Of a stretch of 35,820 bases of DNA, positions 11,844 through 35,447 are shown in pieces (position 1 is the first letter of the stretch; the number at the start of each line of letters is the position of its first letter). The notes beneath the pieces were generated by a model that was not told the origin of the DNA, ran no database searches, and was given only the letters and a program-made list of their open reading frames with translations. The DNA is from Prevotella sp. GTDB taxonomy: Bacteria; Bacteroidota; Bacteroidia; Bacteroidales; Bacteroidaceae. The stretch covers positions 1 through 35,820 of the forward strand of contig JAFRQC010000015.1 of assembly GCA_017428805.1 (NCBI GenBank). The letters are read 5' to 3'. Both the position numbers and the translations under genes were made by a program.

Positions 11844-13148
11844 ATGAAACAGAAACCTGATCTTAGTTTTTGGAAATTGTGGAATCTGAGTTTCGGATTC
11901 TTCGGCGTGCAGATTGCCTACGCCTTGCAGAGTGCCAACATCTCGCGTATCTTCGCCACACTCGGCGCAGACCCGCACAACCTGAGTTATTTCTGGATTC
12001 TTCCGCCATTGATGGGTATCCTTGTGCAACCGATTGTCGGAACACTGTCGGATAAGACATGGACGCGCTTTGGCCGTCGTATTCCTTATCTGTTTGTAGG
12101 AGCCGCCGTCGCAGTGTTGGTAATGTGTCTGTTGCCAAATGCAGGCTCCTTGGGCCTGACGGTCAGTGCCGCCATGATGTTCGGACTGGTTGCCCTGATG
12201 TTCCTCGACACCAGTATCAATATGGCGATGCAGCCGTTTAAGATGCTCGTGGGCGACATGGTGAACGAAAAACAGAAGGCCAAGGCCTACTCCATCCAGT
12301 CGTTCCTCTGCAATGCAGGTTCGGTGCTGGGTTTTGTGTTTCCTTTCATCTTTACATTTATCGGTATCAGTAATGTGGCAGAGAAAGGTGTAGTGCCCGA
12401 CAGCGTCATCTGGTCGTTCTATATCGGTGCCGCCATCCTGATTCTTTGTGTCATCTATACCACCTCGAAGGTGAAAGAGTGGAATCCAAAGGATTATGTA
12501 GAATATAATCCTACATCTGAGAACTCCGAAAGCTCTGAGGATTCCGGAAACTGGATCACCCTACTGAAGAATGCACCTTCGACATTCTGGAAGGTGGGAC
12601 TCGTGCAGTTCTTCTGCTGGGCAGCCATGCTCTATATGTGGAACTATACGACCGGTGCCATTGCCGAGGTGGTGTGGAATACGACCGATCCTTCCAGTGA
12701 GGCCTTCCAGGAGGCAGGCAACTGGGTGGGTATCCTCTTTGCCGTTCAGGCCGTGGGCTCTGTAGTATGGGCCGCCCTGCTGCCACAGTTCAAGAATACG
12801 AAACTGGCTTATTCCGTCAGTCTGGTGATTGGTGGTATCGGCTTTGCACTCGTACCGTTCATCAGCAACCAGTATCTGCAGTTCATCCCGTTCCTGATGA
12901 TCGGTTGTGCTTGGGCTGCAATGCTTGCCATGCCGTTCACATTTGTCACGAATGCCCTGCAGGGTTATGGACACATGGGTGCTTACCTCGGACTCTTCAA
13001 CGGTACCATCTGTATTCCACAGATTGTGGCCGCCCTCTTAGGAGGTGTCATCCTGACGTTGGTAGGTGGCCATCAGTCAACGATGATGATCGTCGCTGGT
13101 GTCAGCTTCCTCATTGGTTCCGTCTGCGTCGCAGGAATTAAGAAGTAA
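11844..13148 (+). CDS. MFS sugar transporter (SLC45/GPH-like), probable inner-membrane maltose/maltodextrin symporter
   Basis: A 434-residue inner-membrane carrier with about twelve hydrophobic segments. The N-terminus LSFWKLWNLSFGFFGVQIAYALQSANISRIF and the loop SDKTWTRFGRRIPYL (MFS motif A region) are typical of the SLC45-type sugar:proton symporters found beside starch loci in Bacteroidota. A longer hydrophilic loop (about 205-230) separates the two halves. It starts 31 nt after the lacI stop and is likely co-transcribed with it and with the SusR-like gene 15 nt downstream. It would move oligosaccharides released in the periplasm into the cytoplasm. Substrate is inferred from context only. 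Confidence 0.85.
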   Translation: MKQKPDLSFWKLWNLSFGFFGVQIAYALQSANISRIFATLGADPHNLSYFWILPPLMGILVQPIVGTLSDKTWTRFGRRIPYLFVGAAVAVLVMCLLPNAGSLGLTVSAAMMFGLVALMFLDTSINMAMQPFKMLVGDMVNEKQKAKAYSIQSFLCNAGSVLGFVFPFIFTFIGISNVAEKGVVPDSVIWSFYIGAAILILCVIYTTSKVKEWNPKDYVEYNPTSENSESSEDSGNWITLLKNAPSTFWKVGLVQFFCWAAMLYMWNYTTGAIAEVVWNTTDPSSEAFQEAGNWVGILFAVQAVGSVVWAALLPQFKNTKLAYSVSLVIGGIGFALVPFISNQYLQFIPFLMIGCAWAAMLAMPFTFVTNALQGYGHMGAYLGLFNGTICIPQIVAALLGGVILTLVGGHQSTMMIVAGVSFLIGSVCVAGIKK

Positions 13149-13156
13149 TTATATTT

Positions 13157-13270
13157 TCGAGGAATGAGGAAGGAAGAAAGAGGAAGAAGATTACTTTGGT
13201 GGCGGAGGGTGATACTGCTTCTCTTCGCCATGCATATCTCCTTCCTCGTTCCTCCTTCCTCGTTCCTCGA
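13157..13270. repeat. Palindromic heptamer-repeat element spanning a start codon (arms 35 bp, spacer 44 nt)
   Basis: The left arm 13157-13191 and right arm 13236-13270 are reverse complements apart from three mismatches (13175, 13179 and 13187) and one G-U pair at 13165. The right arm is built of 7-nt units TTCCTCG, TTCCTCC, TTCCTCG, TTCCTCG. The start codon ATG 13164 of the SusR-like gene lies in the left arm, and the right arm encodes FLVPPSSFL of its signal peptide. In mRNA the arms would form a long hairpin hiding the start. Confidence 0.88.
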
Positions 13271-16184
13271 TATCGATACCCACGCTGCTAACTTCCTGAC
13301 GGAGCGGTACAACCTCACCTCTCTGGACCTGAGCAATGGTCTTCCCCATAATCATGTCAACGACATCTTCAAGGACTCCAGCGGTTTTCTTTGGATCTCG
13401 ACGTATGGCGGTGGTTTAGTCCGCTACGACGGTTATGGGGTCATGGAGCCCAGGCTTGACCTGAATAGTAAGTCTTGCCGCAGTATTGCCGAGGACGACT
13501 TCCACAGGCTCTGGGTAGCTTTCGACGAGGGTATCAATATCATCGACCTGAAAACGATGAGAGCCGTTGTACCTGACCATCCGGGTCTGCGAGAGTTGCT
13601 GACTTTTCCTTCCATGAAGTGCTATCGTGATGCAATGGGGCACATTTGGGTAGTCAATGACCGTCAGGTCTCTCTCATCACATTCGATGCTCAGGGACAG
13701 CCTGATCATATTTACAACTATCCCCACCCTTGGAGGATGCTCGACATTGCCATCTGTGATGTCGATGGAAACGGCAAACCGTGGATTGGTATCGACGGTG
13801 GGCTTTATCGGTTGGTGGAAAAAGGCGGGAAGCTGGTACGGGAGGAAATATCCGCATTGCTGAAACCCCTTCAGGAACATTACATCACTGACATTCTGAA
13901 ACGTAACAATGTTGTCTGGATCACTACCAATCAGGGATTATTCCGTTATGACCCCTATCTGCAAAAGTTGGCTGAGTACCATCATTCCACTGCTCCAGGA
14001 TCCTTGTCCCATGTGTTTCTGTCGAGTTTGGCAGTCACTTCCGACAATCGCTTGTTGGTTGGCTCTCTGTGTGGTGTCAATATCTACGATGATCAGACGG
14101 ACAGTTTCACGGCTTGGACTACGGAGAGCCCTGTTCCGCTGAAGAGCGACTTCGTTCATTGCATCCGTGTCTATCAAGGTCATATCTGGATTGGTACAGA
14201 GTCAGGCGGTATTGCCTGTCTGGCACCGCAACGCCTGCTGCTGCGAAACTCTGTTCATACAAGTGATCCTCGTTCCCTCTCTCCCAACCCCGTGAATGCC
14301 ATGTTGGTTGAGCCTGATGGACGGTTATGGGTGGGAACGGTGGAAGGAGGCCTGAACCTTCGTGAGAAAGGTACTGCCGACTTTGTCCATTACACAACAG
14401 CCAATTCTGGCCTGTCCCATAATAGTGTGTCGGCGCTTGCTGCCGATCATCACGGCAAGCTCTGGATAGGTACGTGGGGAGGAGGAGTCTGCCTGACAGA
14501 TAGGCAGGGAGTCCATCACATCTCCCGTCTGGAACTTCAGGGAGAATATCAGTGGCGTACGGGTTTTGTAGGTGCGCTGGCTGTTGATTCTATTAACGAC
14601 GGCCTGTGGATAGGCAGTAATGCTGGATTGTATTTCTATGATTTCAAGTCGCATGTGATAGAGGAACCGTTTGAGGGATGCCGCAGTCTGACGGGAAATA
14701 TCGGCGCCATCGTCGATTATGATGGTTTACTGTGGATGGGCTGTATGCAGGGCTTGATCAAGGTGGATCTCAACTCTGGACGCCAGGGGCACAGACCCTT
14801 TAAGCATGAACTGATCTCCCACAAGCTGGACGATCCCAATTCACGTATCGTAGATAAGATATCCTCCTTCTGTCTGGCGCATGATGGTACGCTTTGGCTG
14901 GGTAGCAACGGCTATGGACTTTATAGGAGGAAAGGAGACAGGAGTCAGGAGTCAGGAGTCAGGAGAGAAGATGTCTTTGAGGCTTTGACCACAGAAGACG
15001 GTCTGGCCTTCGGTGGTGTCAAGGGTATCGTTGAGGATGTTAACGGACGCTTATGGGTGACGACCCAGAATGGTCTGTCGGTCTATGATCCGAAGACGCA
15101 TGTCTTCTCTAACTATTTCGAGAGCGAAGGTCTGGTCAATCATCATTTCTATTGGAATTCTGCGGCTCGAGATGCCTCGGGTGTCATCTATCTCGGCAGT
15201 GAGGGAGGACTGATAGAAGTGTTGGGTGAGAATACGGAGGCTAAGGCTAATGGCCAGCTTGTGTTTACCCATCTCATCGTGGATAATCAGGATGTCACCG
15301 CCGGCAGTGAATATTTGTCGGAAGACATCTCGATAGCCACATCCATTCAGTTGCGTGAGGGTAACCGTTCATTCTCCATCGCCTTCTCAGCCTTGGATTA
15401 TGGAAACGAGGCGCAGGCCATGTTCAGTTACAGGATGAAAGGCCTTGAGGACGAATGGACGCCGCTCAAACTGGGAGAGCACTCCGTACGCTATAGTGCT
15501 TTGCCTGCCGGTCATTATATCTTCGAGGTGAAATATGTGTCATCTTTGTCAGCCGACCAGTCGGAAATAGCTTCCATCGAGGTGAACGTCAGTCCTGCTT
15601 TTTGGAATAGCTGGTGGTTCCGTTCTTTGCTGGGCATTTTCTTCGTAGTTCTCGTACTTTATATATATAATAGGTGGGTGGCACGTCTGAAACGGTTGGA
15701 GGCCGAACAGCTGCTTAATCCAATCCGCCGTGTATTGGAGGAGTCGGAAGATCCTGCGCAGTTGCAGACCCGTATCCAGAACATCCTCGACAACCAGCAA
15801 CGTTACAAACACAGTGTGACGAAGAGTGTGGAGGCAGACAAGGAGGAGGTGCTCAAACGCACGAAGCCGTTTATGGAGCGCGTGATGGAGATTATGGAAG
15901 CCAACTATATGAATTCTGAGTTTGGCGTGCAGGAGTTCTGTGATGCTCTTGGCATGAGTCGTACGGTGGCCAGCAAACACCTGAATGCGGAGGTGGGTGT
16001 GCCAGCCGGACAGTTTATCCGTAATTATCGTCTGAACATGGCCAAGGAACTGCTCTCTGCGAAGACCGGAAACCGCAATATTACCGAAGTCGCCTATAAG
16101 GTGGGGTTCAACGATCCGAAATACTTCACGCGTTGTTTTGCTAAGATGTTTGGTATGAGTCCAAGTGCCTTTATAGGGGAATAA
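13164..16184 (+). CDS. SusR-like one-component membrane regulator (propeller / Y_Y_Y / TM / AraC HTH, no kinase)
   Basis: A 1006-residue sensor-regulator. After a signal segment (about 1-35, encoded by a palindromic repeat) come the periplasmic two-component-regulator propeller blades (from about 50 to 680; motifs such as GFLWISTYGGGLVRYDG and GRLWVGTVEGGLN), a Y_Y_Y-type domain (about 690-795) and a single membrane helix near 818-836. A short coiled linker and a C-terminal AraC double HTH (about 903-1006; NITEVAYKVGFNDPKYFTRCF) complete it. No HisKA, ATPase or receiver domain is present, so it is built like SusR of B. thetaiotaomicron and not like hybrid two-component systems. It should sense an oligosaccharide in the periplasm and activate the adjoining locus. 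An SQESGVR repeat interrupts the propeller at residues 591-601. Confidence 0.9.
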   Translation: MRKEERGRRLLWWRRVILLLFAMHISFLVPPSSFLDIDTHAANFLTERYNLTSLDLSNGLPHNHVNDIFKDSSGFLWISTYGGGLVRYDGYGVMEPRLDLNSKSCRSIAEDDFHRLWVAFDEGINIIDLKTMRAVVPDHPGLRELLTFPSMKCYRDAMGHIWVVNDRQVSLITFDAQGQPDHIYNYPHPWRMLDIAICDVDGNGKPWIGIDGGLYRLVEKGGKLVREEISALLKPLQEHYITDILKRNNVVWITTNQGLFRYDPYLQKLAEYHHSTAPGSLSHVFLSSLAVTSDNRLLVGSLCGVNIYDDQTDSFTAWTTESPVPLKSDFVHCIRVYQGHIWIGTESGGIACLAPQRLLLRNSVHTSDPRSLSPNPVNAMLVEPDGRLWVGTVEGGLNLREKGTADFVHYTTANSGLSHNSVSALAADHHGKLWIGTWGGGVCLTDRQGVHHISRLELQGEYQWRTGFVGALAVDSINDGLWIGSNAGLYFYDFKSHVIEEPFEGCRSLTGNIGAIVDYDGLLWMGCMQGLIKVDLNSGRQGHRPFKHELISHKLDDPNSRIVDKISSFCLAHDGTLWLGSNGYGLYRRKGDRSQESGVRREDVFEALTTEDGLAFGGVKGIVEDVNGRLWVTTQNGLSVYDPKTHVFSNYFESEGLVNHHFYWNSAARDASGVIYLGSEGGLIEVLGENTEAKANGQLVFTHLIVDNQDVTAGSEYLSEDISIATSIQLREGNRSFSIAFSALDYGNEAQAMFSYRMKGLEDEWTPLKLGEHSVRYSALPAGHYIFEVKYVSSLSADQSEIASIEVNVSPAFWNSWWFRSLLGIFFVVLVLYIYNRWVARLKRLEAEQLLNPIRRVLEESEDPAQLQTRIQNILDNQQRYKHSVTKSVEADKEEVLKRTKPFMERVMEIMEANYMNSEFGVQEFCDALGMSRTVASKHLNAEVGVPAGQFIRNYRLNMAKELLSAKTGNRNITEVAYKVGFNDPKYFTRCFAKMFGMSPSAFIGE
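14933..14967 (+). repeat. In-frame heptamer array (AGGAGTC x3 plus two variant units)
   Basis: Units AGGAGAC, AGGAGTC x3, AGGAGAG. They encode GDRSQESGVRRE in a loop between propeller blades of the SusR-like regulator. Orientation relative to the coding strand is the same as in the two other copies in this window. Confidence 0.9.
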
Positions 16185-23546: not shown

Positions 23547-24620
23547 ATGAAAGCGAAAACAATATTGTGGTCGCTGTTAGCCCTTATTGTGCCTATGACG
23601 GCAGCAGGGCAGCCGCACCGCTTCCAACAAAAAGACTTCCAGACCGACACACCGATGGTCCACGACCCCGTGATGGCCTACGAAGACAGCACCTGGCATA
23701 TCTTTGCCACGGGCATGGGTATCCAGCACATGACCTCCAAGGACCGCAAGACCTGGACGGTGAAGACGGCTCCCGTCATGTCCGTCATCCCCCAGTGGAC
23801 CCACGACTCCGTTCCCGGCTTCACCCATCACGTCTGGGCGCCGGATGTCATCAAATGGCACGACCGCTGGTGGCTCGCCTATAGCTGTTCCACTTTCGGA
23901 CGCAACGGTTCTGCCATCGGACTCCTCTCCACCCGTTCCTTGACCTTTGGCCTCTGGGATGACATGGGCTGCATCGTCACGTCCCGTGAAGGCCGCGACA
24001 ACTGGAACGCCATCGACCCCAACTTCGTCATCGACGATCAGGATCAGCCCTGGCTCGTGTGGGGTTCTTTCTGGGACGGCATCCAGCTGGCCCGCCTCGA
24101 TACGACGATGCATATAGCCAAGGAGTCAGGAGTCAGGAGTCAGGAGTCAGTAAGGCCACGCACCATCGCCCGTCGGTTTAATATGAGTACCTCTGATGGC
24201 AAGAAGGCCCTCTCCGTGAATCCCAATCCCCCGAAGAACCCCACGTCCGACTTCGCAGGTCCTAACGCCATCGAGGCGCCGTTCATCTTCAAGCACGATG
24301 GCTGGTATTACCTCTTCGTCTCTTGGGACTACTGCTGTCAGGGCTCCAAGAGCAACTACCGTGTGGCCGTAGGTCGTAGCCGTAGTGTCGAGGGACCTTA
24401 TCTCGATCCTGACGGCATCGACATGCGCGACGGTGGTGGCATGATCTTCCTTGAGGGTGACAAGAAGGCTTTCGAGGCAGCTGGCCACTGTGCCGCCTAT
24501 ACCTTCGACGGACAGGACATCTTCATCTGTCATGGTTATAGCATCGCCCATCAGGGGGCCTCGATCCTCATCCAGCGTCCTATCCTTTGGACGTCAGACG
24601 GCTGGCCAACACTGAAATAA
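23547..24620 (+). CDS. GH43 endo-1,5-alpha-L-arabinanase-like enzyme
   Basis: A 357-residue secreted glycosidase, started at 23547 (MKAKTILW...) because the upstream ATG (23535) only adds MTIV. The signal peptide ends near residue 21 (AAG/QP). GH43 catalytic residues are visible: base Asp40 in HDPVMAYED, pKa-tuning Asp157 in NAIDPNFVID, and acid Glu243 in AIEAPFIF. The segment WDYCCQGSKSNYRVAVGRS matches the FDFCC...VGRS signature of endo-arabinanases, which cut the alpha-1,5-arabinan backbone. The total length is close to the normal single-domain form. An ESGVRSQES stretch from a heptamer repeat is inserted around residues 193-201 in a loop before RTIARR. It follows a terminator and precedes a second GH43 by about 30 nt. 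Confidence 0.88.
   Translation: MKAKTILWSLLALIVPMTAAGQPHRFQQKDFQTDTPMVHDPVMAYEDSTWHIFATGMGIQHMTSKDRKTWTVKTAPVMSVIPQWTHDSVPGFTHHVWAPDVIKWHDRWWLAYSCSTFGRNGSAIGLLSTRSLTFGLWDDMGCIVTSREGRDNWNAIDPNFVIDDQDQPWLVWGSFWDGIQLARLDTTMHIAKESGVRSQESVRPRTIARRFNMSTSDGKKALSVNPNPPKNPTSDFAGPNAIEAPFIFKHDGWYYLFVSWDYCCQGSKSNYRVAVGRSRSVEGPYLDPDGIDMRDGGGMIFLEGDKKAFEAAGHCAAYTFDGQDIFICHGYSIAHQGASILIQRPILWTSDGWPTLK
24121..24148 (+). repeat. In-frame heptamer array (AGGAGTC x4)
   Basis: Four exact AGGAGTC units encode ESGVRSQES in the endo-arabinanase-like GH43, in a loop before RTIARR. This is the third coding copy of the array in the window, again with AGGAGTC on the coding strand. Confidence 0.92.
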
Positions 24621-24733
24621 AGGTGAAAAGGTGAAAGAGTAATAAATAAGGAATGATGATGAAAGATATAAGAGTAAAGACAAAGGGCTTGGTGATAGGT
24701 GTTTCACTTTTTCACCTTTTCACCTTTTCACCT
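24621..24733. repeat. Palindromic 8-nt repeat element spanning a start codon
   Basis: The left arm AGGTGAAAAGGTGAAA (24621-24636) is perfectly complementary to 24710-24725 and again to 24718-24733, and with one mismatch to 24702-24717. The right arm is a CACCTTTT array. The start codon 24653 lies in the spacer, and the right arm encodes LFHLFTFSP, the hydrophobic core of the signal peptide of the next gene. Confidence 0.82.
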
Positions 24734-26794
24734 ATGGCGAACGCCCAGCAGCGTTCGTGGACGGCTGACAATGGTAATGGCACCTATACCAATCCGCTCT
24801 TTTACGATGAGTTCTCCGACCCCGACATCCTGCGGGTGGGCGACGACTACTACCTCGCTGGCACGACGATGCACACCGTGCCAGGACTGGTGATCCTGCA
24901 CTCTAAGGACCTCGTGAACTGGGAAAACCTCAGTTACTGTTTTGACCGCTTTGACTTTGACGACGATGCCTTCTCGCTGAAGAACCACAAGGAAATCTAT
25001 GGTCAGGGAGTGTGGGCACCTGCCATCCGCTATGCCAACGGTCAGTTCTATGTGTTTACCAACATCAATGGCAAGGGCCTGCAGTGCTATACCTCGAAGG
25101 ACATCCGCGGGCCGTGGAAACACCATAACATGCAGGGGCGCATCTACGACCTCTCCGTGCTATTCGACGACGATGGCAAGATCTATGCCATTCATGGTTA
25201 TGGCGAGGTGAAGTGTACGGAACTGAAGGCCGACATGAGCGGACCCATCGAGGAGACGGAGCGCACTATTATCCCCGAGGGCAACGCCGTGGGCGAGGGT
25301 CATCACATGTATAAGATTAACGGGATGTACTATCTCATCTCTACCGACTACAAACCCAACGGCCGCACACTCTGCTCGCGCTCGAAGAGCATCTGGGGAC
25401 CTTACGAGACCATCACCATCACAGCCGACGAGACCTTCGGCTACCATGCCGCCTCGCTGACACAGGTGCCACAGGGAGAACAGTACCGTATCGGGCACGA
25501 CGGCACGAAGTTCGGCATCCCCGAGGTTGACAAGGACGCCACCGCCTGCACGAACATCCACCAGGGAGGCATCGTGGAAGACCAGAGCGGACAGTGGTGG
25601 GCACTGCTGATGATGGACTTCCACTCCATCGGACGCACCGTCACCCTCGCTCCAATCACATGGAAGGACGGCTGGCCCATGCTGGGACTAGAAGGTAACC
25701 TGGGGCGTGCACCTCGTACGTGGTTCAAACCGAATGTTTCGAGGAGTGAGGAGAGCGAAGTGAGGAGTGAGATTACTCCACACGCTCCTTATGTGCGTTC
25801 TGAGAACTTCAACGGCAAAGCGCTGGGCCGTGTCTGGCAGTGGAACCACAATCCCGACGACACGAAATGGAGCCTGAAGAAAGGCCGCCTGCGCCTGCAG
25901 TCGATGCCTGCCGAACAGCTGATGTGGGCCCGCAATACGCTCACCCAGCGTGTCATCGGCCCCCAGAGCATCGCCACCGTCGAACTCTATACCAAAGGCA
26001 TGAAGGACGGCGACGTGGCAGGACTGGGTAATATCAACGTGCCCTGTTCGTGGATCGGCATCGTGAAGGAAGGCAAGCAGCTGACATTGCGCCGCTTCGA
26101 GCAGGCGGATAACGATACCATCGACGTGCCTGTCGCCATCACTGATGGTAAACTCTACCTTCGCATGGTGGGCGACTATGATCACGACCGTGCCTACTAT
26201 GAGTTCTCGCTCGACGGCAAGACCTATCAGCAGGTGGGCGACGAGATGAAACTCTCATACCAGTTGATCTCCTTCCAAGGTTCTCGCCATGCCCTCTTCG
26301 CCTTCAATAAGAACGGGAAGAACGGTGGCTATGCCGAGTTTGACAATTTCACCGTGGAGGAGCCGATGGCCGACCGCAGCCAGAATATCCCCTACAACAA
26401 GACATTCCGCATCATCAACCTCGCAACGGGCAAGCCCGCCATCGCCTTGGAGCATGGACTGCTCTATGATACAGACAAGGCAGACAAGTCTAAACAGACC
26501 CGCTTCCGTATCATAGACAAGGGGCAGGGTAAGGTTATCCTACAGTGCGAGGATGGACGTTACGTCTTCTGTGCAGGCTATGGCATTGCTGGTGATGTGC
26601 GTTTGACGAAGGACGAGTCGAAGGCGGAGGTGTTCCTCTGGCAAGACTACCTGAACCATGAGTTCATGCTGATGTCCATGCGCACACATAAATACATAGG
26701 AAAGAGTCCCACCACGGGCAGTCCCTATTCGATGGACTTCCCTGGTGCCGATCCCGCTCGTCGCAACGGCTCCGTTTTCCGCTGGGAAGAATAA
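24653..26794 (+). CDS. GH43 (subfamily 12-like) exo-glycosidase, probable alpha-L-arabinofuranosidase, with beta-sandwich and C-terminal domain
   Basis: A 713-residue secreted enzyme. The signal peptide ends near ANAQQ (residue 33). The GH43 catalytic domain (about 40-355) shows base Asp56 in SDPDIL, pKa modulator Asp166 in GRIYDLSVLF, and acid Glu215 in GEGHHMYKINGMYYL. A jelly-roll domain typical of GH43_12-type exo-enzymes (about 380-575, ENFNGKALGRVWQWNHNPDD) follows, then a C-terminal region of about 130 residues (FRIINLATGKPAIALEHG...) that looks like a beta-trefoil. A degenerate heptamer repeat encoding RSEESEVRSE joins the first two domains. It would trim arabinose from arabinan or side chains left by the neighbouring endo-enzyme. 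Xylosidase activity is an alternative. The start is at the first of three consecutive ATG codons. Confidence 0.83.
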   Translation: MMMKDIRVKTKGLVIGVSLFHLFTFSPMANAQQRSWTADNGNGTYTNPLFYDEFSDPDILRVGDDYYLAGTTMHTVPGLVILHSKDLVNWENLSYCFDRFDFDDDAFSLKNHKEIYGQGVWAPAIRYANGQFYVFTNINGKGLQCYTSKDIRGPWKHHNMQGRIYDLSVLFDDDGKIYAIHGYGEVKCTELKADMSGPIEETERTIIPEGNAVGEGHHMYKINGMYYLISTDYKPNGRTLCSRSKSIWGPYETITITADETFGYHAASLTQVPQGEQYRIGHDGTKFGIPEVDKDATACTNIHQGGIVEDQSGQWWALLMMDFHSIGRTVTLAPITWKDGWPMLGLEGNLGRAPRTWFKPNVSRSEESEVRSEITPHAPYVRSENFNGKALGRVWQWNHNPDDTKWSLKKGRLRLQSMPAEQLMWARNTLTQRVIGPQSIATVELYTKGMKDGDVAGLGNINVPCSWIGIVKEGKQLTLRRFEQADNDTIDVPVAITDGKLYLRMVGDYDHDRAYYEFSLDGKTYQQVGDEMKLSYQLISFQGSRHALFAFNKNGKNGGYAEFDNFTVEEPMADRSQNIPYNKTFRIINLATGKPAIALEHGLLYDTDKADKSKQTRFRIIDKGQGKVILQCEDGRYVFCAGYGIAGDVRLTKDESKAEVFLWQDYLNHEFMLMSMRTHKYIGKSPTTGSPYSMDFPGADPARRNGSVFRWEE
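25741..25771 (+). repeat. Degenerate heptamer array in interdomain linker
   Basis: Units GAGGAGT, GAGGAGA, GCGAAGT, GAGGAGT encode RSEESEVRSE exactly between the catalytic and jelly-roll domains of the GH43_12-like enzyme. Confidence 0.8.
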
Positions 26795-26880
26795 ATAGCC
26801 TGATTTTGTGCCGAGACCTCCCTTATTCTTTGGAAACACCTGTATATAAAGGGACTTTCGCACGGGAGGTGTTGTTACAT

Positions 26881-26979
26881 GACCTCCCATAGATCTCCCA
26901 TAGACCTCCCTTCACTCCTCCCTTTGTCCTTAGGCAGGGGAGTTCAGACGGGAGGTCTATGGGAGGTTTGAGGGAGGTC
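26881..26979. repeat. Palindromic 11-nt repeat element (arms 30 bp, spacer 39 nt)
   Basis: The left arm 26881-26910 and right arm 26950-26979 are inverted copies differing at 4 of 30 positions, including a perfect 16-bp core GGGAGGTCTATGGGAG (26950-26965) against 26895-26910. Each arm consists of nearly three 11-nt units of GGGAGGTCTAT type. A competing 13-bp inverted pair AGACGGGAGGTCT (26946-26958) / AGACCTCCCGTCT (26988-27000) overlaps it. Confidence 0.88.
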
Positions 26980-27142
26980 TCCAGAGAAGACCTCCCGTCT
27001 TGAAACCCCGATAAACAAAGGCATTTCCAAAGAAAACGGGAGGTCTGAGGTTTTTTCTACGATGCACCTCTTATTTCAGGCAATCACTAGTTCTTTTTCC
27101 CCTGTTTCTAGTACGCTGGGAGTTTACCCTATCTAAACTCGG

Positions 27143-27182
27143 ACTTTCCTTAGGGGAAACTCCCACTTTCCTTAGGGGAAAC
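27143..27182. repeat. Tandem pair of 18-bp hairpin-forming repeats, 22-bp period
   Basis: ACTTTCCTTAGGGGAAAC occurs at 27143-27160 and 27165-27182. Each copy can itself fold (TTTCC/GGAAA). Confidence 0.9.
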
Positions 27183-27385: not shown

Positions 27386-27558
27386 GAATGTATAAAACAA
27401 AAACTGTAAGGAATGGCTACTCAAATCATTGAGGGCACAAAGTTGGTGGTAGACTTTGGGTGCAAAGGTACAAATAAAAGTTAAAACAGAGGCTATTCCC
27501 ATCTTAAAAAAACGAAAAAGTGATGGCCTGTAGCGTCACAACTTATCAAGAAAAGTTG

Positions 27559-27566
27559 TATCTTTG
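27559..27566 (+). promoter_or_regulatory. Bacteroidetes -7 box for the efflux operon
   Basis: TATCTTTG followed by CATC matches TAnnTTTG. The predicted start near 27573 gives a leader of about 45 nt, which contains a small GGGG/CCCC hairpin (27584-27597) followed by a T-run. Confidence 0.65.
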
Positions 27567-27618
27567 CATCCGCCAAAAGAAAAGGGGTGTGTTCCCCGTC
27601 ACTTTTTTATTTTGTTGA

Positions 27619-33781: not shown

Positions 33782-35350
33782 ATGATTGTAAGTATCGTTT
33801 TAGCAATTATACTGATGATGAATTCGTGTAACGGACAGACAAGGGAACCCGTCGTGAGGCCTGCCACCCAGGCGAACAGGTTCTATGATGGCAATGCCCA
33901 GAGGCTCAGTCAGGAGGTGGACAGTTTCCTGGCACTTCACAGAGGGAGTGCGGACCGTCGTCGTGTGGCAGCACTTATTGTGCCACACGCTGGTTACTAT
34001 TATTCGGGCAATGTGGCGGCATCGGCCTATATGGCACTCAACCCGAAGCAGCCGTATAAGCGGATATTCCTGCTCGGCCCCAGTCACCACGAATGGCTTG
34101 ACGGGGCTTCGGTGAACACAGAGGCAGACTATTATGCTACGCCCTTGGGTAACGTGAAAGTGGATCGTGAGACGGCAAAGAAGTTGACCACAGATTACGC
34201 AGATTGCACAGATTCTTTTTCGACCACGAATTTCACGAATTACACGAATTTTGATCCAGCAAAAGATTCCGAGAGGGTGTTCTTCTATAGGCCGGAGGCA
34301 CATGATAGGGAGCATTGCCTGGAGGTACAGTTGCCTTTCCTGCAACGAAGACTCGGTGACGTGCCGCCCATTGTGCCGATTATTATTTCTACGAACGACT
34401 TCCAGAAGCTGTCAAGGATGGCGGAAGCGCTCAAGCCGTATTTCACGGACGAGAACCTCTTTGTGATCAGCAGCGACTTCTCGCACTATCCGACGTATGA
34501 GGATGCCTATGAGGCGGATGGCAAGACGGGGAAGGCGATCGAGAGTGGCGACGTGGGGCAATTTATTGCGGCCATCGAGGAGAACGCCCGAAGCGGTAAA
34601 CGGAATCTGGCGACGAGTGCCTGCGGGGAGTTTGCCATCATCACGCTGATGCTGATGCTCGATAGCAACTATGAGGTGAAGCACCTGATGTACCAGAACT
34701 CTGGCGACATCGGCGATACGGATCACAGCCGTGTGGTGGGCTATCATTCGTTCGCCATCCTGCACAATGGAAATGATGGCATCGGAAGAACATGGACGAA
34801 CACGGATTTTGTGTTATCCGACAATGATAAAAAGAAGTTGAAAGAAATAGCTCTCAATAGCATTAAGGATTCTTTGGATGGCAAGTCCGTGTCAGTCAGT
34901 GTTAGTCCGATGCAAGAATATCCGATGCTCAGCAAGAAGTGTGGAGCCTTCGTGTCGTTGCATAAGCATGGACATCTTCGTGGTTGTATCGGACACTTCG
35001 GCGAGGATACGCCTCTGTATGAGATCGTGGCAGAGATGGCCCGTGCCGCTGCCTTTGAGGATCCGAGGTTTATGCCCGTCAGCCGTGAGGAACTGGACGC
35101 TATCGACATCGAGATCTCCGTGCTCACTCCCATGCGCCGCATCCAGAGCCTCGACGAGTTTGAACTGCATCGTCACGGCATCTATATCCGCAAGGGTTAT
35201 CGCAGCGGTACGTTCCTGCCGCAGGTGGCTGACGAGGTGAACTGGACGAAGGAAGAGTTCGTGGGACATTGCTCTCAGGACAAGGCGGGACTTGGCTGGA
35301 ACGGCTGGAAGGACGCAGAACTGTACGTTTACGAAGCAATAGTTTTCTAA
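33782..35350 (+). CDS. Fused MEMO1-family (AmrB) and AMMECR1-family (AmrA) protein of the AmmeMemoRadiSam system, lipoprotein-like N-terminus
   Basis: A 522-residue fusion. The MEMO part (about 23-335) keeps the dioxygenase-like residues VPHAGYYYSG (His69), LLGPSHHE, SSDFSHYPTYEDAYEAD and SACGEFAI. The AMMECR1 part (about 345-522) has the hallmark HLRGCIGHFGEDTPLYEIVAEMARAAAFEDPRF and IEISVLTPM. The start is fixed by a stop codon immediately upstream. The first 16 residues are hydrophobic and end in NSC, which resembles a lipobox, although no basic residue precedes it. A 9-nt repeat array inserts TTDYADCTDSFSTTNFTNYTNF at about residues 136-158 in the MEMO domain. The molecular function of the system is unknown; MEMO proteins resemble non-haem dioxygenases. 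The radical SAM partner follows. Confidence 0.9.
   Translation: MIVSIVLAIILMMNSCNGQTREPVVRPATQANRFYDGNAQRLSQEVDSFLALHRGSADRRRVAALIVPHAGYYYSGNVAASAYMALNPKQPYKRIFLLGPSHHEWLDGASVNTEADYYATPLGNVKVDRETAKKLTTDYADCTDSFSTTNFTNYTNFDPAKDSERVFFYRPEAHDREHCLEVQLPFLQRRLGDVPPIVPIIISTNDFQKLSRMAEALKPYFTDENLFVISSDFSHYPTYEDAYEADGKTGKAIESGDVGQFIAAIEENARSGKRNLATSACGEFAIITLMLMLDSNYEVKHLMYQNSGDIGDTDHSRVVGYHSFAILHNGNDGIGRTWTNTDFVLSDNDKKKLKEIALNSIKDSLDGKSVSVSVSPMQEYPMLSKKCGAFVSLHKHGHLRGCIGHFGEDTPLYEIVAEMARAAAFEDPRFMPVSREELDAIDIEISVLTPMRRIQSLDEFELHRHGIYIRKGYRSGTFLPQVADEVNWTKEEFVGHCSQDKAGLGWNGWKDAELYVYEAIVF
34191..34251 (+). repeat. Two 9-nt tandem arrays read in frame inside the MEMO domain
   Basis: CAGATTACG, CAGATTGCA, CAGATTCTT (34191-34217) and CACGAATTT, CACGAATTA, CACGAATTT (34225-34251). 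Being multiples of three, the units encode TDY/ADC and TNF/TNY triplets. The second array shares its unit with the palindrome downstream at 35351-35447. Confidence 0.92.
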
Positions 35351-35447
35351 ACAACGAATTACACGAATTTCACGAATTATTATATGCGAAAAGATATATA
35401 TGAAAAGGATGCGCAGCCAAATTCGTGAAATTCGTGTAATTCGTTGT
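35351..35447. repeat. Perfect 28-bp inverted repeat made of 9-nt units (spacer 41 nt)
   Basis: The left arm 35351-35378 (ACAACGAATT, ACACGAATTTC, ACGAATT) is the exact reverse complement of 35420-35447. The spacer is 35379-35419. It fills the gap between the MEMO-AMMECR1 stop and the radical SAM start (35465), ending 17 nt before the ATG. Confidence 0.95.

Follow-up and report, generated by a model that had tools for sequence, protein, structure and literature searches.

A Dispersed Palindrome at the Start of a SusR-Like Regulator Gene in Prevotella and Related Repeats That Write Putative Signal Peptides

The Palindrome and the Regulator Gene

The window analysed here is the whole 35,820-nt stretch of contig JAFRQC010000015.1 from a Prevotella sp. 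assembly (GCA_017428805.1). On its plus strand an MFS transporter gene (11844..13148; ORF list and Pfam) is followed by the gene of a 1006-aa regulator (13164..16184; ORF list and Pfam), which is SusR-like by its Reg_prop, Y_Y_Y and AraC-type HTH (HTH_18) domains, and a palindrome of 114 bp (13157..13270) begins 8 nt beyond the stop codon of the transporter gene. An inverted-repeat search reproduced exactly the geometry given in the original prediction: a purine-rich left arm of CGAGGAA-type heptamers (13157..13191, plus strand) and a pyrimidine-rich right arm (13236..13270, plus strand), each of 35 nt and 89% complementary to one another, enclose a spacer of 44 nt (13192..13235), and by reading, the arms form 31 Watson-Crick pairs and one U-G pair with three mismatches. 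The element thus has terminal inverted repeats, as would a MITE. The heptamer pair pattern matches seven times in the window, compared to 0.49 expected, and six of these seven matches lie within the element.

A single reading frame runs through the palindrome, giving roughly MRKEERGRR from the left arm, LLWWRRVILLLFAMH from the spacer and ISFLVPPSSFL(D) from the right arm, and then continues as DIDTHAA. Sequence and ORF reading agree with the predicted start at the ATG of the left arm (13164..13166), where orthologous loci L087, L088 and L101 also have an in-frame ATG at the same end, and the predicted FLVPPSSFL of the right arm was recovered as well, with ISFLVPPSSFLD in frame of this ATG. 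Two alternative starts, GTG at codon 16 and ATG at codon 23, are both situated in the element's own spacer, and from the element to the LTERYN residues of the mature domain the frame has no ATG, GTG or TTG codon, which bears out the earlier remark that Met23 in the spacer is the sole other methionine. By inspection, the N-terminus has the features of a Sec-type signal peptide, with a basic n-region (MRKEERGRRLLWWRR), a hydrophobic core (VILLLFAMHISFLV) and small residues at the cleavage site (DTHA-A). Its last part (IDTHAA, 13271..13289, plus strand, the cleavage position being placed by eye) is outside the element. Judging from the sequence, the element would supply the start together with the n- and h-regions, and the HAA-type end before the mature part looks to be the gene's own; HAA, HAG or SAG residues resembling this end are found in the orthologues L088, L089, L100, and L101.

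A second element of the same kind is present at 24619..24727 on the plus strand, in which arms at 24619-24640 and 24706-24727 (inverted-repeat search) are made of the octamer AAAGGTGA. Its right arm encodes SLFHLFTF and so writes the signal-peptide core of the next gene, a GH43 beta-xylosidase-like gene (24653..26794, plus strand; ORF list and Pfam). The first 40 residues of this gene, used as query, matched 49 proteins, comprising 38 of GH43, 10 of TolC type (E 3.5e-4 to 1.1) and a single other whose E value of 4.6 is not significant. A hairpin of nonamers of the ACGAATTTC type (35351..35447, unstranded; inverted-repeat search) directly follows ORF 33782-35350 and is also contained in a putative minus-strand ORF. 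The window further holds a 109-nt inverted repeat with GGGAGGT/ACCTCCC motifs at 26814-27046 (72% complementary, 15 nt apart), a repeat resembling which is present in the nearest genome, G001 (L035:2318-2416), and inverted repeats at 27117-27165 and 27506-27616, both 5′ of ORF 27619, with 2 nt between the second and the ATG of this ORF.

A Dispersed Family of Hairpins with Tandem-Repeat Arms

A 301-base query region gave 46 matches in G001, one of them being the orthologous site at 94%, and the remainder are arm matches spread over many contigs. In 778 kb of G001, 53 inverted repeats with tandem arms were counted against none in one first-order Markov resample, a density that is not a genome average since the bulk regions of G001 and of a second species, G032, are contigs chosen for holding at least one match. 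The 53 hairpins range from 47 to 190 bp, and their units comprise 7-mers of the CGAGGAA, GAGTGTG, AATGAGG, AGAGGTA, TAAATGA and GTTTATAG types, the 8-mers AAAGGTGA, GGGGGTAC and AAATGGGA, a 9-mer of the ACGGATTAC type and the 10-mer GGACTGACTC. A first classification assigned 21 of them to intergenic positions, 18 to positions over a 5′ end, 12 to the interior and 2 to the 3′ end of genes, and a second rule gave 32 intergenic, 13 internal and 8 N-terminal hairpins; those of period 9 are outside genes in 17 of 18 cases. No element with tandem arms was found in 200 kb each of G025 and G017, two genomes of the same genus. An order-wide search for the heptamer TTCACTA, a unit found in G032, returned 13 of 198 genomes, so that this unit is not general. 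In other families of the order, copies of TTCACTR cluster into arrays, in some of which the step is 42 nt (G216:C1:352990-353295, G163:C4:26435-26516, and G099:C264:12318-12420). A different palindrome, TCAGACC...GGAGGGG, occurs on its own in G001 (L033:8997-9093 and L044:4680-4788), and several CGAGGAA elements have sequence like it in their spacers, which indicates that the repeats are nested.

Copies Inside Genes

Nine copies of the CGAGGAA family in G001 are read in frame as part of stop-to-stop ORFs with lengths of 393-1033 aa; eight of the nine read SR(N/K)EEGG, and PPSSF-type residues are common at their end. Taking the various unit families together, internal copies are carried by genes for a RimO/MiaB-type enzyme, PrmC, Dxs, an RsmF-like methyltransferase and a U32 peptidase, all assigned by Pfam, and by a further gene of G001 which we take to encode a P-type ATPase from its DKTGT motif. 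The ATPase gene has two in-frame palindromes of two unit families (L065:8607-8735 and L065:9212-9345), and both insertions are confined to G001 among 30 aligned homologues (from 33 matched genomes, three of them without the locus), lying in loops of variable length. In a homologue from genome G019 (L109), the stretch that was matched contains one TAA codon in frame. Likewise, the insertion in the RimO-type gene is present in 1 of 26 aligned proteins, that of G001, the alignment drawing on 30 loci (52 genomes matched) of which four had no ORF bearing the search motif. Other repeat-like peptides were seen by eye in the same RimO-type loop at L215, L228, and L230. The RimO-type and ATPase loops were examined for an empty site with target duplication and are too variable to offer a clean one.

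Copies at Gene Starts

The position of the arms relative to genes depends on the unit. A triple heptamer of TTCACTR matched G032 187 times at no more than one mismatch, vs. 2 for the reversed pattern. Thirty loci were merged into 21 sites, the first 21 in listing order, and the pyrimidine arm coincided with the N-terminus of a gene on the same strand in 11 of these 21, compared to 6.5% expected when positions within these loci are drawn at random (p = 1.8e-8), and in none on the opposite strand. Ten of the 11 N-terminal sites have the look of signal peptides of the LFTIHCSLFT type, the exception being L212, and a further site, L213, looks like a signal peptide by eye and was left uncounted, its ORF being cut by the contig end. 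In G001, whole-genome searches with two units drew their loci from the first 30 of 51 and the first 30 of 32 matches, which merged into 25 and 20 tested sites, 19 and 14 of them on contigs other than the nine used in bulk. On these other contigs, arms of the TCATTT type stand at a same-strand N-terminus in 8/14 sites (6.8% expected, p = 9.6e-7) and arms of the TTTCACC type in 6/19 (6.0% expected, p = 6.6e-4); for all sites tested the counts are 12/20 and 8/25. Signal-peptide cores coded by arms in G001 include SFIIYHLSFSVAC, SLFHLFTFSPLAAQ, and SLFHLFTLSPLFAQ. These figures supersede earlier counts of 8/20 for G032 and, for G001, of 4/6 for the TCATTTAT type and 3/8 for TTTCACC, because the G032 contigs had partly been picked via N-terminal hits and the G001 units had been picked after examples were seen.

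The unit of the regulator's own palindrome shows no such preference: the CGAGGAA arm (TTCCTC type) has no N-terminal bias in G001, with 2 of 19 sites (p = 0.26) and one on the opposite strand, and copies of this unit are mostly internal. Intact palindromes of all units in G001 are not enriched at N-termini either (8/53 vs. 7.06 expected), and a general enrichment of this kind was dropped; internal positions are depleted among them, with 13/53 compared to 72% at random placement. The proteins that carry such N-termini are diverse, ten hand-chosen carriers of G032 falling into ten Pfam families (PPIC-type rotamase, BatD, FKBP, papain-like peptidase, M28, SusD, OEP/TolC, PD40, DUF4835, and GH28). 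A profile built from six N-termini gave many weak hits, and its two strong hits are the model's own rows or near-identical to them; the weaker hits in G032 led to the TTCACTA repeat.

The Regulator Site in Related Genomes

Comparison of orthologous SusR-like genes, for which the original prediction had called, covered 14 of 17 loci (L097, L102, and L103 were left out), and 6 of the 14 have a palindrome and 8 a plain signal peptide. Together with the many dispersed copies, this speaks for the predicted capture of a repeat as an export signal; its being recent is doubtful, as the element occupies the regulator site in several species and its arms there have diverged or been exchanged. The order of MFS gene and regulator, read from the upstream DNA, is kept in L087, L088, L089, L090, L092, L094, L100, and L101, among which L090 and L094 have a plain signal peptide. 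The arms of L087 and L088 are of CGAGGAA type and pair at 32/35 and 33/35 positions, respectively. L101 (90% in the best segment) combines a spacer like that of the window with GAGTG-type heptamers in both arms, and its remnant CGAGGGATGAGG unit still contains the ATG. L100 (81%) has TGAATAG arms around a spacer weakly similar to the window's, and would start with GTG or TTG because no in-frame ATG precedes the hydrophobic stretch. L092 has AGAGGTG arms and a different spacer, and L089 a weaker palindrome. A further reading of 17 of 18 loci (L022, which starts at residue 369, being left out) yielded L012, a more distant orthologue in G032 with a 15-nt palindrome of GAAGAATTAAG-type repeats at the regulator site. 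In genome G019 (L010/L092), the left arm seems also to give the last codons and stop of the upstream MFS gene.

With the spacer ends of L101, L100, L092, and L031 set by hand, similarity to the window's spacer exceeds that of shuffled sequences for L101 (z = 7.1), for L031, which is another gene of G001 (z = 7.0), and for L100 (z = 4.3), and is absent for L092 (z = 0.6); the spacer of L100 beats all 300 shuffles when compared with the window, but not with L087 or L088. A spacer like the window's is thus found in L087, L088, L101 and L031, and more weakly in L100. At the protein level, the N-terminus of the regulator is kept in P0003-P0007, which were found by searching with that N-terminus itself and of which P0006 stands for 127 member sequences. 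A protein search with residues 1-42 matched five proteins in all, each with Pfam domains of the SusR-like regulator type, and therefore does not show sharing across families.

Same Genes Written in Different Units

In six gene pairs, the signal peptides of both G001 and G032 are written by arms of different units. Three of the pairs, namely BatD, an FKBP-type lipoprotein and the L071/L179 gene, come from orthologue comparison, and the other three, an M28 peptidase, DUF4835 and an EHSKYIQAVDEY protein, were matched by eye. In BatD and the FKBP-type gene, only a short distance separates the stop codon of the preceding gene from the repeats in both species. A DUF4831 pair shows a comparable pattern below the tandem threshold, with an imperfect copy in G032, and the L177 gene is repeat-written in G032 with a plain signal peptide in G001. 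The orthologue comparison left 37 pairs after filters. In the small sample of 11 exported pairs, 3 have repeats in both genomes, 1 in G032 only, 0 in G001 only and 7 in neither (Fisher p = 0.024), and among the 26 other pairs the co-occurrence gives p = 0.41.

Element codons, compared over three species pairs, have dN of 0.037-0.063 and dS of 0.23-0.51, and their dN/dS of 0.09-0.27 is based on 10-13 differences; in the rest of the gene (codons 45-380) dN/dS is lower, at 0.01-0.04. These sequence comparisons suggest that the element-coded peptide is under some constraint, weaker than that on the mature protein.

Origin and Turnover of the Element

We consider it probable that the element is a dispersed and presumably non-autonomous palindrome of rumen Prevotella-type bacteria, a copy of which became the start codon, n-region and h-region of the regulator. 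The best reading is that selfish palindromes were tolerated and then used as start codons and n/h-regions of signal peptides, with units that change. Such an element would consist of two arms of tandem 7-mers around a short spacer, and its copies would persist where the encoded peptide does no harm, namely in intergenic DNA, in loops that belong to cytosolic enzymes, and where exported genes begin. Its purine-rich arm would supply codons for R, K, E, and G and sometimes an ATG or GTG, and its pyrimidine-rich arm codons for L, F, S, P, I, and H; inverting a palindrome leaves the purine arm ahead of the pyrimidine arm, and so a copy at the beginning of a gene provides both an n-region and a hydrophobic region regardless of its orientation. 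At the SusR-like regulator, a copy would have replaced the start codon, n-region and h-region, and the gene's own cleavage end would have been retained. The arm-coded peptide would then direct export of the protein, and the palindrome would be mobile.

Copies are dispersed, they lie in frame within genes and at N-termini, and orthologous sites have different units around a similar spacer. How one unit came to stand in place of another may be answered in several ways. Possibly, although this can be offered only tentatively, the palindromes are self-rewriting mobile signal-peptide cassettes, in which both arms are replaced in concert and in place, for example by hairpin-templated copying, and the genes are inherited vertically; if so, a species would write many signal peptides of its secretome in its own repeat units. 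A likewise tentative alternative is that each species acquired its own insertion, the junctions before exported genes being tolerant hot spots, and no unit was ever rewritten in place. The unrelated spacers and units of L092 and L089 are consistent with this, as are the several different repeat-like insertions seen by eye in the RimO-type loop, but the window, L088 and L101 share a similar spacer, frame and right junction despite their different arms, with L100 as a weaker case. It is rather unlikely that L101 acquired its GAGTGTG arms through gene conversion, with a paralogous copy of the same spacer as donor. L031 in G001 could represent such a donor, having the same spacer type and GAGTG-type arms, and yet the L101 spacer does not score higher against L031 (19.5) than against the window (21), and L100 would be left unexplained.

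The original prediction had also proposed that a hairpin in the mRNA buries the start codon and so controls translation. For the window, the burial is supported by folding of the leader RNA, which has a minimum free energy of -68.3 kcal/mol and an ATG with a predicted unpaired probability of 0.0001-0.0016; the corresponding probability in L101 is 0.04-0.12, and pairing of the arms is retained in L087 and L088. From these values one could picture a control device in which pairing between the left arm and the coding right arm conceals the start codon and adjusts how much of the regulator is made, but we regard it as improbable. Burial is not general, the ATG of L092 (unpaired probability 0.77-0.85) and of several G032 copies lying in the loop, so that translational control is not supported by the orthologues; moreover, such hairpins also occur within genes and in non-coding DNA, and a left arm is recognisable, with the settings used, in only 5 of 17 N-terminal loci of G032. 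The ATG of the element-free L094 is itself partly paired (unpaired probability 0.05-0.40). A known structured RNA family was rejected, since no Rfam 15 family matched at the gathering score, the 21 matches at E values up to 1 being mostly to microRNA hairpin models. Finally, a chance palindrome or an assembly artefact, which might come to mind as the named relatives are metagenome-assembled records, is extremely improbable given the element in the separate records L087 and L088, its N-terminus in P0003-P0007 including the 127 sequences of P0006, and the absence of hairpins from the shuffled sequence.

Comparison with Known Systems

Among the top-ranked matches in the open-licence literature, no description of such elements or of repeat-written signal peptides in Prevotella was recognised. 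The capture of tolerated palindromes would mean that selfish DNA has a way of providing genes with export signals. The orthologous sites, with their different repeat units, also form a natural series for the study of how two arms change in concert. Predicted start codons and signal peptides of rumen Prevotella genomes may derive from repeats, and hence N-terminal similarity need not mean homology of the proteins, as is exemplified by the GH43 and TolC-type proteins sharing one repeat-type N-terminus.

Several known elements resemble the palindrome in part. REP elements with GTAG or CGTC tags are likewise small dispersed bacterial palindromes, but they measure 20-40 bp and have tagged ends, and the portion of the source available to us does not describe tandem heptamer arms or coding of signal peptides (PMC3733652). 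PARCELs are, similarly, protein-coding palindromic DNA linked to membrane-targeted proteins; in the excerpted account they are tandem protein motifs of 25 residues, with no hairpin over a start codon and signal peptide (PMC2996958). The BrickBuilt MITE of Porphyromonas gingivalis also combines tandem and inverted repeats and also belongs to Bacteroidales, whereas its unit has 23 nt, and the extracts of its description place it always between genes and give it no coding use (PMC4596501). An identity with BrickBuilt was set aside, the units found here being of 7 and 8 nt and many of them lying in genes. In its behaviour, the element resembles descriptions of the Rickettsia palindromic elements (RPEs), small dispersed palindromes of about 150 bp that, according to partial texts of the two sources, lie in frame in many unrelated genes and encode a conserved peptide (PMC10969869, PMC3733652). 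The Prevotella-type element is, like these, a small dispersed palindrome found in frame in unrelated genes and missing from their homologues. Unlike RPEs as these excerpts portray them, it has arms of tandem 7- or 8-mers whose unit varies between copies and species, its hosts are Bacteroidales, and many of its copies write signal peptides and start codons, a use that does not appear in those descriptions of RPEs.
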